Source: Natronosalvus rutilus (GTDB lineage: Archaea; Halobacteriota; Halobacteria; Halobacteriales; Natrialbaceae). From it: a stretch of 64,000 nucleotides of DNA. The DNA is taken from contig NZ_CP100355.1 in assembly GCF_024204665.1 (NCBI RefSeq), forward strand, positions 806,001-870,000, in the 5' to 3' direction. A program made the position numbers and the translations under genes. This document shows positions 31,973-37,959 of this stretch, in pieces (position 1 is the first letter of the stretch; each line of letters opens with the position of its first letter). The notes below the pieces were generated by a model. The model had not been told where the DNA came from, did no database searches, and saw nothing but the letters and a program-made list of their open reading frames with translations.

Positions 31973-32107
31973 GTCGGTGTCTCCGGTCCACGGCGGGATA
32001 ACCGTTGGGCGGTCATTTGCCGTGTTCTCAGCGCCGAGGTCGTGCCACGACCTATCGAACTTGGGGGCTGCTCGAGTGAGAATCGCTTCTGATACGAGTG
32101 AAAAAGG

Positions 32108-32190
32108 GATGTCGCCTCCCGGATTTGAACCGAAGGAAGATGGTCGCTCTCGCTTCGCTCGAGCGCTGCGACTTCTAGGGTTCAAATCCA
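32108..32190 (-). repeat. tRNA-Phe tail palindrome
   Basis: A copy of the tRNA-Phe 3' tail (32110-32131, 21 of 22 bases identical) lies opposite an inverted T-arm (32178-32190). Between them is a GC-rich hairpin block (32142-32176) that is nearly identical to one beside tRNA-Val (40284-40320). It sits outside the integrated element. Without the element it would lie about 70-130 bases downstream of tRNA-Phe. Confidence 0.82.
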
Positions 32191-32256: not shown

Positions 32257-32340
32257 ATGCCGCCTCCCGGATTTGAAAAACGCGAGACTGGCGTCTCGCT
32301 TCCCCGCTCGCTGCGCTCGCGGGGACCGGGGACAGCTCGA
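32257..32340 (-). repeat. Left attachment site, interrupted by hairpin DNA
   Basis: Positions 32257-32277 and 32326-32340 together match tRNA-Phe 37885-37920 exactly (36 bases). A 48-base block (32278-32325) splits them within the T-loop sequence. The block holds GCGAGAC/GTCTCGC with a four-base loop and CCCCGC/GCGGGG with a longer loop. Confidence 0.85.
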
Positions 32341-32384: not shown

Positions 32385-33404
32385 ATGAACGAAACGCTCG
32401 AACCCATCTCGCCTATTGAAGCGAAGGAAATGTACCTCAACGCGAGGAAACACGAGGTGTCGCAAAGCACCCTCGACGGGTATCATTACCGTCTCAAACA
32501 CTTCATCCGTTGGTGTGATAACGTCGAAGGACTCGATAATATGAACGACCTCACCGGACGGAAGTTGCAACAATTCAAAACGTGGCGGCGGGACGATGGG
32601 AGTTTGAAACCCATCACGTTAGAAGGCAACCTCGATGCGCTCCGTGTATTCATCCGTTGGTGTGAGTCGATCGATGCCGTCACCGAAGGACTACACGATA
32701 AAATCGTGATGCCCGTCCTGAAGAAGCACGATGAACAAGCAGACGGTATCCTCGACGGTGACGATGCCGACGAACTGCTGTCGTACTTACGGCGTTTCAA
32801 ATACGCCTCACGTCGCCACGTCGTTATCGAATTGTTCTGGCAAACGGGAATGCGTCTCGGGGCACTACGCTCGATCGATGTTACCGACTACGATCCCGAA
32901 AACAGATCGATCCTCCTCGAACACCGACCTAACTCCGATACGCCGTTGAAGAACGGTGAGGAAGGGGAACGTCTCGTTGCATTGACCTCGGAGTTGTGTC
33001 GTGTCCTCGATGACTGGATCGACCACAATCGCCACGACGTTACCGATGAATACGGACGTAAACCGTTGCTAACGACGGAGAACGGCCGGATACTGGGCTC
33101 GTCGGTTCGTGATGAAGTGTATTTTGTCACTCGCCCCTGCTTCTACGGTGTTGACTGTCCTGTTGGTCGTGACCCGGGTGAATGCGAAGCGACGAACTAC
33201 GGGCATTACAGCAAGTGTCCCTCGAATGTGAGTCCTCACGATGTTCGCCGTGGATCAATCACGCACCACTTGTCGAACGACATCCCCGAGAAGGTCGTGA
33301 GCGATCGGATGAACGTGGGCATGGATGTTTTGGATATCCACTACGACAAACGGTCGGAACAAGTGAAGATGGAGCAACGACGTGCGTATCTTGAAAACGT
33401 TTAA
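32385..33404 (+). CDS. int: Tyrosine recombinase / integrase
   Basis: Site-specific recombinase of 339 residues that would move the element into tRNA-Phe. An N-terminal SAM-like arm (about 10-95, two FIRWCDN/FIRWCES repeats) is followed by the catalytic domain: Arg157 in GMRLGALR, Lys near 189, His285 and Arg288 in SPHDVRRG, and nucleophile Tyr320 in DIHYDK. A four-Cys insertion (Cys252, 258, 267, 278) just before the HxxR box is a putative zinc site seen in haloarchaeal integrases. Its stop overlaps the convergent gene's stop by two bases. Confidence 0.92.
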   Translation: MNETLEPISPIEAKEMYLNARKHEVSQSTLDGYHYRLKHFIRWCDNVEGLDNMNDLTGRKLQQFKTWRRDDGSLKPITLEGNLDALRVFIRWCESIDAVTEGLHDKIVMPVLKKHDEQADGILDGDDADELLSYLRRFKYASRRHVVIELFWQTGMRLGALRSIDVTDYDPENRSILLEHRPNSDTPLKNGEEGERLVALTSELCRVLDDWIDHNRHDVTDEYGRKPLLTTENGRILGSSVRDEVYFVTRPCFYGVDCPVGRDPGECEATNYGHYSKCPSNVSPHDVRRGSITHHLSNDIPEKVVSDRMNVGMDVLDIHYDKRSEQVKMEQRRAYLENV

Positions 33405-34507
33405 TCGGATTCATCTAAATCAGACACAGGAATTGAGTACAAATTGGTATCACGAAGTTGGTTCTCGAACTCATCAAGTAATGGTTGGCGGGCATGTGAG
33501 CATGCAGCGTAGGCATCACTTGCTTCTTGTGGTGTCGCGCTTTTTCCTTCGTGAATAATTTCGTGTCTCAACTCATAGGCCTCTTGTTTGAATTGTTGGA
33601 ATTCGCTTGTGCCAACATAATCAAATCCAATGTGATCGGGTATATGATTGTAGCAAATGTTGTTGAATTTATCATACTCGCCATCAGTTTTGATTTTATC
33701 GTCTATCTTGCTCTGCGACCATCCATTAGCATCTAAAATTGTCTCAACAGCGGATTTCACCCAAAATTCTAAAAATCGGTATGATGCAATCACGGCTAAA
33801 TCGTATTCTTGAGTACTCAGTTTATCTAATGCATCCAAATCCAGTTTTTGGTAAGGGTTGACTGGTGATTCATTAATTAATTTCACCCTCAATTTCTCAT
33901 CCAAATCATTCGATATTGTACCGCCAAATCCTTGAAATTCTGAGGGGGTTATCGTCCTAGATATTTCTCGATAATTTTCATCATCCTCAAAAATACGAAT
34001 CCCAAATTCCATTATCTCTTCAACACTCAGTGGTCGAATCCAGTATGCGTGAGACGCAGATTTGTACACTTCAAGAAATCTGTTGATGTATTTGACAGCA
34101 CTGGTTATATAATATTCCGCCTCTGGATCCATTGAGGCGATATTAGACCCCCAAGCATGTTCCATTTTGTCTACCACAGTTGATGCTTCAAAATTATTGG
34201 GTGTCGTGCTGATGAATTCTTCGCCGAACCAAACTTGGACCTCGGCATATGATATTTTGCCAAGTCTATCTGCTTCTACTGTTCCAGCGATCTTTGCCCC
34301 TCCCGCTTGATTAGGTATCCTTTTAAATCGCAACTGTGCTGTTATCCCATCGATATTAATATTGTATGCATTTTCTTCATTAGAAATAGAATCTTCAACC
34401 CTTGGAGTGAATGGGATTACACACCTGATGGCGACTGTGTGCGGGTCTTCGTCCTGCTCGATCATTCTCATCGAAATTTGAACTAAATCTACATAAAATA
34501 TGCTCAT
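33401..34507 (-). CDS. Element cargo protein with HEPN-like C-terminus
   Basis: A 368-residue protein in visibly AT-rich DNA, not strongly acidic, so recently acquired. Residues 1-130 are beta-rich; 130-270 are mixed. The C-terminal part (about 225-350) is helical with YELRHEIIHEG: Arg314 and His319 form the Rx4H pair of HEPN ribonuclease domains, preceded by a helix ASYRFLEFWVKSAVETIL as in HEPN folds. An abortive-infection or similar defence function is inference from this motif and location. I do not recognise the N-terminal domain. Confidence 0.75.
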   Translation of the reverse strand: MSIFYVDLVQISMRMIEQDEDPHTVAIRCVIPFTPRVEDSISNEENAYNINIDGITAQLRFKRIPNQAGGAKIAGTVEADRLGKISYAEVQVWFGEEFISTTPNNFEASTVVDKMEHAWGSNIASMDPEAEYYITSAVKYINRFLEVYKSASHAYWIRPLSVEEIMEFGIRIFEDDENYREISRTITPSEFQGFGGTISNDLDEKLRVKLINESPVNPYQKLDLDALDKLSTQEYDLAVIASYRFLEFWVKSAVETILDANGWSQSKIDDKIKTDGEYDKFNNICYNHIPDHIGFDYVGTSEFQQFKQEAYELRHEIIHEGKSATPQEASDAYAACSHARQPLLDEFENQLRDTNLYSIPVSDLDESD

Positions 34508-34537
34508 GGGTAGAACCGTTACCCAATTTCACTCTTT

Positions 34538-34984
34538 TCAGGATTGGTGGTTTTCTGTAGATTCTTCCAGTGAGAATGTGGGCAAACTGCTGAGGATTTT
34601 CATCTCACAATCATAAGGACTCGGGAGCTCGTCAACAAATGCTCGCACGAACCCTTCCGTTTCCGGTTCGATAAACACCTCCGCATCTGCGTGTATCGTC
34701 TCCCCTTCATTGTTTTCGTAAACCGTTGGGACGAGTAAGGGAATACCCTGGTCGATATACGCCTGGGAGACGTTTCTGAGCGCCTCGCTCTCTGTTTCAA
34801 GGTTTCCATCCGTGTCAATAGTCCCGACGACCTCGTCTTGTTCGTAATCGATTATCTCGACCGTCACGGTATCGTTGTGTGCCGATTCCATTCCCTCGGC
34901 AACCGATCGGGAAAATGATTCGTCCATCCACTCCTGAATTTTGCTGGCATCGGCGTCGGGATCGGGGCGCTCGGGTTCTTCCAT
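34538..34984 (-). CDS. Acidic element-encoded protein, unknown
   Basis: A 148-residue acidic protein (MEEPERPDPDADASKIQEWM...) with an amphipathic N-terminal helix region and a beta-rich middle (TVEIIDYEQDEVVGTIDTDGN, TIHADAEVFIEPETEG). It lies 30 bases upstream of the HEPN-like gene on the same strand, so it may be its partner, for instance an antitoxin or regulator. No family recognised. Confidence 0.65.
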   Translation of the reverse strand: MEEPERPDPDADASKIQEWMDESFSRSVAEGMESAHNDTVTVEIIDYEQDEVVGTIDTDGNLETESEALRNVSQAYIDQGIPLLVPTVYENNEGETIHADAEVFIEPETEGFVRAFVDELPSPYDCEMKILSSLPTFSLEESTENHQS

Positions 34985-35243: not shown

Positions 35244-36518
35244 TTACGAATCCGGGAAGGGTAATCCCTTTGGCCAAGCGAACTCGGGGTTTAGTTCGAT
35301 AACATTCGTTTGACCACCTTGAACTGTTTCAGTATCGTGATATGCCAGACCGAGAGAATCAAGCGTATTCATTCGGTCTGTTGCTGTCTCGTGAGCAACC
35401 CCAAGCCGGTCAATCACATTACGCGTTTTGAGACGCTCACCGAGATCCAGTTGTAACAACTCACGCAGGAGGTCACGACGCTTTTTCGGGACTGTACTCA
35501 ACGCGACACGGCCACAAATCTCGAGATCGTCGATCGTGATTTGACGACGATTATATAGAAGGGCATGACCTCGCGCGATATTTTTCATCATGTCTGTTAT
35601 CCGTCCTGGATCTTCGCACTCTCCGCCCATAGGCGCTCGAGCGTGAACGACTAACCTCGAGAGATACATCAATCCCTCACCAACATTCTCGTTGGGCGTC
35701 TTCTTCCAGTCAACACTATTTGGACCGCCATGATCTGACCAAAGATCATCGAGATAATGCTGAATAGACTGTGTCATTTCGCTCACTTTTTGCCCGTACT
35801 CACTTTCACCAAAGACGATATTACGGTAAACGTCCTCCTCGTCTCGACTTGGCATCTCGACAAATAGGAATCGGTTACCCGTATGCCCCATCATCTCCCA
35901 ATCCTGCTGCTTTAGCGGTGTGGTCGCACCGATGAAATTGAACCGATAATCACCCTGGTACCCACGACGACCGTGGGTTCCTGAGTCACTCGTGAAACCG
36001 GTTCCGTCCATCACGCGGACTAAACGTGCCATCTTTTCCTTTCTAACCCCCCAATCGCCACCGAACCAGTTCGCCATCTCTGGATTCAGTAGTGTTTTGT
36101 GTTTGATTCGAGGAATGAGATCGTCATCTGCCAACTCGTCCTTGTCTCTTGAGGCGTCGTGACTGACGAACGATGCTGGTGTAACCTCGTCCGAGCGGTA
36201 AAACTGCGAGTGCAGACCTTCGAACGGTTTCAGCGCAGTGGTTTTGCCTGCTCCCGATGGTCCTTCGACAATCAACCCGAAACAACTCTCGATGCCATTG
36301 ATGAACAATGTTGCATGAACGGACATCACTGCCTCAGTTACGTGCCACATCCGCTCGTCAAAGTTTTCGAGAACATCACCGCGAACGTTGTAGTCCTCGA
36401 TATTGACGTTGGTGTGCTGGTTCGTGGTTCCCGTTCTATCATCCGCTAGACCCCAAGTCATGTTGGCACCTGCTTTTGGATGACAAGGCCTAGGTGAAGT
36501 GAACGCGAAGTGTCGCAT
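35244..36518 (-). CDS. AAA-type ATPase with C-terminal winged helix
   Basis: A 424-residue protein likely involved in element replication. Walker A GPSGAGKT is at residues 86-93, followed by a possible Walker B/DGTG loop RLVRVMDGTG (about 165-174) and a sensor-1-like NFIGATTPL (about 194-202). A C-terminal helix-turn-helix (about 345-395, TRNVIDRLGVAHETATDRMN) follows. The layout resembles superfamily 3 or MCM-like helicases of plasmids and proviruses, but I cannot name a family. ATG 36518 is 23 bases after the RHH stop; ATG 36461 is an alternative. Confidence 0.75.
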   Translation of the reverse strand: MRHFAFTSPRPCHPKAGANMTWGLADDRTGTTNQHTNVNIEDYNVRGDVLENFDERMWHVTEAVMSVHATLFINGIESCFGLIVEGPSGAGKTTALKPFEGLHSQFYRSDEVTPASFVSHDASRDKDELADDDLIPRIKHKTLLNPEMANWFGGDWGVRKEKMARLVRVMDGTGFTSDSGTHGRRGYQGDYRFNFIGATTPLKQQDWEMMGHTGNRFLFVEMPSRDEEDVYRNIVFGESEYGQKVSEMTQSIQHYLDDLWSDHGGPNSVDWKKTPNENVGEGLMYLSRLVVHARAPMGGECEDPGRITDMMKNIARGHALLYNRRQITIDDLEICGRVALSTVPKKRRDLLRELLQLDLGERLKTRNVIDRLGVAHETATDRMNTLDSLGLAYHDTETVQGGQTNVIELNPEFAWPKGLPFPDS

Positions 36519-36541: not shown

Positions 36542-36676
36542 CTATTCCTCCAGGCGTTCCTCTCGATATTGCTTCATTAGATCGTGAAGCACATCGTCGT
36601 ATGTTTGTCCGCCGGTCTTCAACGCTCGAAGTTCGTCACGCGTTTTTGCTCCGAGCGCAATGGTTGTTCGATCCAT
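36542..36676 (-). CDS. Ribbon-helix-helix protein
   Basis: A 44-residue protein, MDRTTIALGAKTRDELRALK then TGGQTYDDVLHDLMKQYREE: one strand and two helices of a MetJ/Arc-type DNA-binding dimer. AT-rich TATAACATTATA lies immediately upstream of its ATG. It precedes the ATPase gene by 23 bases and probably represses this promoter and helps control copy number or excision. Confidence 0.82.
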   Translation of the reverse strand: MDRTTIALGAKTRDELRALKTGGQTYDDVLHDLMKQYREERLEE

Positions 36677-37190: not shown

Positions 37191-37604
37191 ATGGGTGATC
37201 CTGAACGTCTATCGGCGGACGCGTTATATAATCTCCTATCCCATCACCGCCGGCGCACGATTCTTGAGTTGCTCTTGGCCCATGAGCAGAAGTTGACGTT
37301 ATCGGATCTCACGAATGAAATTGCCGTGCGAGAATATGACGATGAAATCACGGAAATCTCGGGGGACAAAATCATGGACATCCATATTTCGCTTTATCAT
37401 GTACACATTCCGAAATTGGCAGAAACCAATATTATTGAGTACGACCAATCACGCGGTATCATTGATCCGACAGAGAATCTTCAAAAATTAGAATCACAAC
37501 TCCCCCCCCAATTATTGAACGGGAAACCTCTTCGGAATAATCGTCAAATCATTCAAGGTACTCATTGCGGAGACGACAGCACATTCGCGTCTCTCACGAT
37601 CTAG
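37191..37604 (+). CDS. DUF7344 winged-helix protein of the element
   Basis: A 137-residue winged-helix protein: LSADALYNLLSHHRRRTILE (helix 1-2), the NEIAVREYDD segment, and YHVHIPKLAETNIIEYDQ (recognition helix and wing). DUF7344 proteins are widespread haloarchaeal regulators. Base composition is lower in GC than the chromosomal homologue at 39500-39937. It likely regulates element genes and is transcribed towards the tRNA. Confidence 0.85.
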   Translation: MGDPERLSADALYNLLSHHRRRTILELLLAHEQKLTLSDLTNEIAVREYDDEITEISGDKIMDIHISLYHVHIPKLAETNIIEYDQSRGIIDPTENLQKLESQLPPQLLNGKPLRNNRQIIQGTHCGDDSTFASLTI

Positions 37605-37816: not shown

Positions 37817-37885
37817 ACGATTTCCCGTCGAAATCGGGTCAATCGCAACGCTGTCCGGTGATTGTGGTTCGACCCGAAACAAGGA

Positions 37886-37959
37886 TGCCGCCTCCCGGAT
37901 TTGAACCGGGGACAGCTCGATCTTCAGTCGAGTGCTCTCCCAGTCTGAGCTAAGGCGGC
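37886..37959 (-). tRNA. tRNA-Phe (anticodon GAA)
   Basis: Acceptor GCCGCCT with the 3' strand AGGCGGC (discriminator A at 37886). Anticodon stem CTCGA/TCGAG closes the loop CTGAAGA, anticodon GAA. T-arm CCGGTTCAAATCCGG. CCA is not encoded. The gene remains intact because the integrated element restored its 3' part. Confidence 0.95.

Follow-up and report, generated by a model that had tools for sequence, protein, structure and literature searches.

A mobile HEPN-domain gene in a haloarchaeal integrated element, a candidate trigger-activated RNase acting without a partner gene

Introduction

Does a HEPN gene that lies next to a small acidic gene in a haloarchaeal integrated element belong to a two-gene toxin-antitoxin unit, or is it a unit of its own, and what would such a gene do? 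The locus that raises this question lies in a 64,000-nucleotide stretch of Natronosalvus rutilus, here called the window (positions 806001-870000 of contig C1, NZ_CP100355.1, in the 4.31-Mb haloarchaeal genome G000). Within a 5.6-kb integrated element, a gene for a 368-residue protein (the HEPN gene, 33401-34507, minus strand) is separated by 30 bases from a gene for a 148-residue protein (the acidic gene, 34538-34984, minus strand). An earlier description made from the letters of the window (the sequence-only reading) had reported these two open reading frames on the same strand, the 30-base gap, an Rx4H motif formed by Arg314 and His319 and a small acidic neighbor. All of these are confirmed, and the HEPN gene is intact. 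Below we show that a HEPN fold is predicted, that its motifs are conserved, and that the gene is under purifying selection and has a solitary, mobile distribution, and we weigh what kind of gene this describes.

Results

The C-Terminal Half Is a Predicted HEPN Domain with Conserved Motifs

The protein comprises an N-terminal β-rich domain (residues ∼22-200) and a HEPN domain (∼216-350). Assignment of the C-terminal half (residues 216-351) to the HEPN fold is supported by a predicted structure together with motif conservation. The full-length model was built from three sequences and has a mean predicted local distance difference test score (pLDDT) of 58.4, with block means of 62-86 on the main HEPN helices and of 43-86 across the HEPN domain, in which segments 278-282 and 289-299 fall below 50. 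Six of the top seven rows of a second structural comparison are HEPN structures, aligned to residues ∼213-351. The best of these is 2hsb (Z 10.8, root-mean-square deviation [rmsd] 3.0, 116 aligned residues, 217-351), followed by 1ufb (Z 10.3, rmsd 2.4, 110 aligned), which we take to be a HEPN structure, and by 2q00 and 2jpu (Z 9.2 each); the HEPN toxin structures 8xdj and 8yuf match the model at Z 7.5. Both 2hsb and 2q00 are listed as HEPN in the excerpts consulted of PMC3710099, and the title of 2jpu identifies it as a solution structure of the 2q00 target.

The same excerpts give as marks of RNase-type HEPN domains an Rx4-6H motif, an N, D, or H directly after the arginine and, often, an upstream Ex3[KR] (PMC3710099). 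In the window protein the Rx4H motif sits in LRHEIIHEG (Arg314-xxxx-His319-Glu320-Gly321; codons 33545-33568, minus strand), and Glu247-x3-Lys251 forms the second HEPN motif, Ex3K (codons 33755-33769, minus strand; both positions computed from residue numbers). In a ten-row alignment (A2), R314, H319, and E320 are kept in all eight rows that reach the region, the other two ending earlier, and the motif arginine is followed by H in the window protein and by N in the seven others. E247 is kept in nine of nine and K251 in eight of nine rows reaching them. Three rows (L004, L005, and L012, the genes in L062, L006, and L058) are mutually 86%-95% identical, so the number of independent rows is nearer six. 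The HEPN domain proposed by the sequence-only reading is therefore upheld: the two checks that it had set, on the fold and on conservation of the Arg/His pair, returned a predicted fold that matches HEPN structures and a pair kept throughout.

The HEPN Gene Is Rare, under Purifying Selection, and Moves Singly

Relatives of the HEPN protein, at ∼28%-34% identity, are few and scattered (the window's own genome is counted in every total for the family). A search with the window protein found them in 5 of 149 genomes, the four besides its own at E values of 1e-40 to 1e-49. With the alignment as query, they were found in 9 of 391 genomes of the class, scattered over families, in 4 of 125 of the family, in 8 of 392 of the order, and in 6 of 392 of the phylum, three of these last being weak partial matches outside haloarchaea. 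The gene occurs in nine distinct haloarchaeal genomes, two of them with a truncated or broken copy (L016; L017 and L018). Named carriers are Halalkalicoccus jeotgali B3, whose copy is on a plasmid, the one that a plasmid search gave, Natronococcus jeotgali, and a Halorubrum strain with a truncated copy. Truncated or stop-broken copies were seen in haloarchaeal genomes at L016, L008, L017, and L018, and from these it is evident that the gene is repeatedly lost too. Among three close relatives the ratio of nonsynonymous to synonymous substitution rates is 0.165, 0.087, and 0.089; the protein is therefore under purifying selection.

Beyond the haloarchaea, the relatives elsewhere in the phylum (L063, L064, and L065) are partial or weak, and when 149 and 59 genomes around two of them were searched, each search returned just its query genome. 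Scans of viral contigs with the HEPN proteins confirmed no relative, and tblastn of phage records found none. One viral locus returned by the alignment query (L020) was rejected, because the frame that overlaps it encodes a long, phage-like protein lacking the motifs. Judged by titles and abstract openings, none of the papers listed by literature searches describes this family.

Two loci from different haloarchaeal families (L058, f17; L062, f1) have in common a 1384-bp block of 94.4% DNA identity and nothing else. The HEPN gene is the sole complete gene of this block, flanked on either side by about 170-190 bp, and this transfer of the HEPN gene alone is the strongest single result for one gene rather than two. 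The surroundings of the gene agree with it. We compared all frames of at least 60 residues within 6 kb at nine loci (the window, L006, and L056-L062); besides the HEPN gene and frames overlapping it, no frame is common to any two of them at E ≤ 1e-5.

In several of its surroundings the gene stands out by its base composition. In the window its GC content is 39.7%, against 50.4% for the remainder of the element and 62.0% for the chromosome flanks, and in L057, L059, and L062 it is a lone AT-rich islet of 42%-54% GC in a chromosome of 64%-67% GC. AT-richness is not universal, because the plasmid copy (L006) is slightly GC-richer than its flanks (52.6% versus 46%). Cargo that moves singly between haloarchaeal elements and chromosomes is the best explanation of these observations.

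A Defense Role Is Favored over Other Roles for a Solitary RNase

We lean, with little more than even confidence, toward a single-gene, trigger-activated HEPN RNase defense gene, probably of the abortive-infection kind and working like the HEPN proteins Tha and ApeA, which are compared with it in the Discussion. An uncharacterized N terminus joined to an intact HEPN signature, in a gene that is solitary, mobile, and scattered, is the anatomy of single-gene abortive infection. The defense role already suggested by the sequence-only reading is plausible and is the one we prefer. In the mechanism that we infer, the C-terminal domain would be an Rx4H-type RNase, probably dimeric, whose dimer cleft would contain Arg314 and His319. 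The ∼180 N-terminal residues would form a sensor that holds the RNase off until a trigger is met, and that trigger would most likely be something that an infecting virus or rival element makes or brings about. The triggered protein would then cut RNA and halt growth, and the arrest would protect the resident element and the population, as abortive infection or superinfection exclusion.

Several results weigh against this reading. The structure model has low confidence (three sequences, mean pLDDT of 58), and for helical bundles a Z score below about 13 may reflect merely a common arrangement. Foldseek alone gives no match at E ≤ 0.001, with 2q00 at rank 6. In the ten members scanned, every match to a curated HEPN model falls short of the cut-off: the best match, DUF4145, has E 0.0027 and 18.2 bits against a cut-off of 23.1 in one of the ten, and the window protein's match to RiboL-PSP-HEPN (E 0.094) is also below cut-off. 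As a yardstick, Tha-1 of phage 80alpha is likewise sub-threshold (DUF4145, E 0.025, 15.1 bits); because this proven member also fails, a curated cut-off is not a defining feature of HEPN proteins. Finally, the relatives are not consistently found in defense islands. A PADLOC scan of ten neighbors of HEPN relatives gave four matches at E ≤ 0.001, each at a different locus (Cas4-like, Csa3-like, PDC-S31, and PDC-S70).

This last result speaks for a solitary HEPN RNase without a defense role, serving copy control, maintenance, or stress regulation, or acting on host RNA as selfish cargo. Of the alternatives it survives best, and we regard it as unlikely but worth serious weight. Besides the lack of a defense-island context common to the loci, it can draw on the position of the gene, which adjoins an integrase in one element and is alone on chromosomes elsewhere. 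Against it, conflict genes are the better fit for the scattered distribution, and a gene that travels by itself among unrelated elements and chromosomes is not bound to any one element's biology.

The N-Terminal Domain, a Proposed Sensor, Has No Meaningful Library Match

Residues ∼22-200 have no meaningful match in Pfam, NCBIfam, PHROGs, or PADLOC and no PDB match by sequence, so that the earlier description of this domain as unfamiliar holds for these searches. Modeled alone, the domain is predicted at low confidence (mean pLDDT 65.5, predicted template modeling score 0.70) to have the topology β-β-β-β-α-β-β, with four strands, a long helix, and two strands. The best structural row for this model is part of an oxidase at Z 6.7; this value lies within the range rated common, and an oxidase-like fold name was not adopted. 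No CARF, SAVED, or ApeA-type structure is among the matches listed, which by itself proves nothing.

The domain carries conserved signatures, D80-R81-x-G83, N142-x-F144-x-x-x-Y148, and W156-x-R158. Two weakly matching sequences of other archaea in the phylum have a similar N-R-F/L-I-x-x-Y-R stretch, which in one case is followed by a separate frame containing a HEPN-like RRNAIAHHG; as sequence likenesses outside the haloarchaea these are leads, not proof. A bolder proposal, which we put forward tentatively and think less likely than not, ties the signatures D-R-L-G and N-x-F-L-x-x-Y-R/K...W-I-R to a new archaeal sensor family. Such a domain would directly recognize a conserved component of haloarchaeal viruses and activate the HEPN RNase joined to it, giving pattern recognition by a single gene, with distant versions outside haloarchaea.

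The domain could instead bind a nucleotide second messenger made during infection and so activate the HEPN RNase, which would make the protein a CARF/Csx1-like effector. The window protein does weakly match the PADLOC Csx1/Csm6 CARF+HEPN model (E 0.0083, residues 207-330), and further PADLOC CARF-HEPN models are weakly matched by one relative each (best E 0.0016). The match of the window protein is, however, confined to the HEPN half. The predicted strand and helix order of the N-terminal domain also speaks against a CARF effector, as does the lack of a CARF row among the matches listed, and none of the element genes scanned is a cas gene. In the members scanned, Pfam CARF models gave no hit at E ≤ 1. 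We consider this alternative improbable.

The Acidic Gene Is a Separate Mobile-Element Gene

The 148-residue neighbor has 38 D+E against 6 K+R. At 51.5% GC its gene is only mildly AT-rich and resembles the element rather than the HEPN gene; of the AT-rich two-gene cargo in the sequence-only reading, the HEPN gene alone therefore retains the description. Relatives of the acidic gene were found in six other genomes, within other elements (56%-77% identity, two partial or broken). None of these six loci carries a HEPN relative, none of their genomes is listed with one among the 149 HEPN-searched genomes, and none of the eight HEPN loci outside the window carries an adjoining acidic gene. A scan of viral contigs with the acidic gene confirmed no relative.

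At three of the six loci (L051, L052, where it is truncated, and L053), the acidic gene follows a gene for a helix-hairpin-helix/OGG-like protein, and at L050 the tail of such a gene, recognized by eye, precedes it. At those three loci the acidic gene belongs to a pair with an upstream DNA-glycosylase-like (weak match) protein, a partner that is missing in the window. A further gene near the acidic gene, TATA-binding-protein-like by eye, encodes 182-183 residues at L050:2250-2801 and L054:7836-8384, the two being 74% identical.

The toxin-antitoxin unit of the sequence-only reading would have the acidic protein neutralize a HEPN toxin. The shared strand, the 30-base gap, the small acidic product, and probable co-transcription all favor such a unit, and the gap does suggest that the two genes are co-transcribed in this one element. 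The true start of the HEPN gene may nevertheless be Met13 or Met15, because the alignments of relatives start near residue 13-28, and the gap would then be about 66-72 bases, not 30. Conservation of the pair across unrelated elements, on which the sequence-only reading had placed a check, was found at none of the eight HEPN loci and none of the six acidic-gene loci outside the window. With no shared neighbor among the nine HEPN loci, with acidic relatives that live without a HEPN gene and follow the helix-hairpin-helix/OGG-like gene at half of their loci, and with a 1.38-kb block transferred with the HEPN gene alone, a conserved toxin-antitoxin unit is rejected and even a local one is very improbable. 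We also considered the acidic gene as a purpose-encoded inhibitor of the kind that Ith is for Tha; because acidic relatives occur without the HEPN gene, such a pairing would at most be private to this element. No nucleotidyltransferase match was found in the acidic gene or in the element genes scanned. Least probable of all is a catalytically silent HEPN domain that merely binds nucleotide or RNA: the motif is lost in some HEPN families according to excerpts of PMC3710099, but here Arg, His, Glu, and Ex3K are all kept across distant relatives.

The Integrated Element and Neighboring Genes

The sequence-only reading had placed both genes in an integrated element, which is confirmed by an integrase and a tRNA-derived repeat. 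The element lies between a 21-bp repeat at 32257-32277 (attL, no strand) and an intact tRNA-Phe (gaa) gene at 37886-37959 (minus strand), which is the integration target and attR. By sequence comparison, attL is an exact copy of the 3′ end of the tRNA-Phe gene, identical to 37885-37905. The tyrosine integrase (32385-33404, plus strand) has SAM-like and catalytic domains, and its stop codon overlaps that of the HEPN gene by four bases, tail to tail. A further, older-looking copy of the tRNA-Phe 3′ end lies at 32100-32132 (33 nucleotides at 91%) and a separate 16-bp piece of the tRNA gene at 32325-32340; together with the copy at 32257-32277, these suggest that integration at the site happened more than once. 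A repeat search around the HEPN gene gave nothing of use.

The backbone of the element includes a P-loop/AAA-like ATPase with a C-terminal helix-turn-helix-like part (35244-36518, minus strand), assigned from weak library matches and from relatives in two other genomes. These relatives are 40% identical and come from 2 of 148 other genomes searched (L071:6731-8053 and L072:6172-7467); one of the two loci adjoins tRNA-Val. Both loci keep the ATPase but lack the HEPN and acidic genes, and are therefore silent on what occupies the cargo slot. Beside the ATPase gene, a 44-residue DUF7557-like protein (36542-36676, minus strand; match sub-threshold) is presumably a ribbon-helix-helix regulator, and a DUF7344 winged-helix-like protein is encoded at 37191-37604 (plus strand).

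Two observations concern genes near relatives of the HEPN gene or of the ATPase. About 1.1 kb upstream of one HEPN relative, a 344-residue protein (L056:11376-12811, minus strand) combines a MazE/AbrB-type antitoxin domain with TFIIB repeats and adjoins a PemK/MazF-type toxin gene; the protein is thus a fusion of antitoxin and general transcription factor. The products of L058:10525-11367, which adjoins a HEPN relative, and of L071:3600-4403, at one of the ATPase loci, look alike by eye, with the pattern GYGxPxRxKLxxxHxHP.

Discussion

The HEPN gene represents a new family among the single-protein HEPN effectors, themselves a known kind, and any further novelty may lie in the N-terminal domain. 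None of Pfam, NCBIfam, PHROGs, and PADLOC matches the family at a meaningful score, and its active-site signature is intact. Excerpts of PMC12988326 suggest that many of the defense genes in archaea are stand-alone genes on which current models were not built. If this protein is indeed a trigger-activated RNase, archaea would have their own equivalent of Tha in a form open to genetics, along with a new N-terminal sensor for which a viral trigger could be sought. The locus also carries a caution, that a short intergenic gap alone is poor ground for calling a toxin-antitoxin pair.

Of the known HEPN systems, the Csx1/Csm6 (CARF-HEPN) effectors resemble the window protein in having an N-terminal domain followed by a C-terminal HEPN domain and in the weak model match over the HEPN half; they differ in that the window protein gives no clear evidence of a CARF domain and the element genes scanned include no cas gene. 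The HEPN/MNT toxin-antitoxin system (HepT/MntA), as described in excerpts of PMC7641770, has in common with it the HEPN RNase fold and Rx4H, and the model resembles the toxin structure 8xdj. In contrast, no MNT gene adjoins the HEPN gene here, and the window protein has an extra N-terminal domain and is without a conserved partner.

ApeA is listed as a phage defense system (PMC10952713, PMC7699616). According to excerpts of PMC3710099, it is a HEPN protein with a mostly-β N-terminal domain (ApeA-NTD1), and, like the window protein as predicted here, it joins a β-containing N-terminal domain to a C-terminal HEPN domain with an intact Rx4H. The N-terminal domain is ∼300 residues and mostly β in those excerpts, against ∼180-200 residues in the window protein, where its topology comes from a low-confidence model. 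The HEPN_Apea model matches one of the ten members scanned (E 0.044, 14.6 bits against a cut-off of 24.4), and the others give no match at E ≤ 1.

The closest functional parallel is Tha of Staphylococcus aureus prophages. Excerpts of PMC11087260 describe a 301-residue protein with a C-terminal HEPN domain carrying R265NSIMH270 and no recognizable N-terminal domain, a non-specific RNase that is harmless until activated by a phage tail protein, with a proven role in defense. The two proteins have no detectable sequence relation (hhalign of A2 against 80alpha Tha-1, probability 0.1%), and for this reason we say that the window protein may work like Tha, not that it is a Tha. Their gene arrangements also differ in detail: tha overlaps an antisense xis/inhibitor gene in the parts of the source consulted, whereas the HEPN gene overlaps the integrase gene by just four bases. 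The likeness nonetheless extends from protein to locus. Each is a single protein (301 versus 368 residues) with an unrecognized N-terminal part and a C-terminal HEPN domain with R-polar-xxx-H, and each is borne by an element beside its integrase gene, tha adjoining int and xis in phage 80alpha, on the strand opposite to the neighbor that overlaps its 3′ end.

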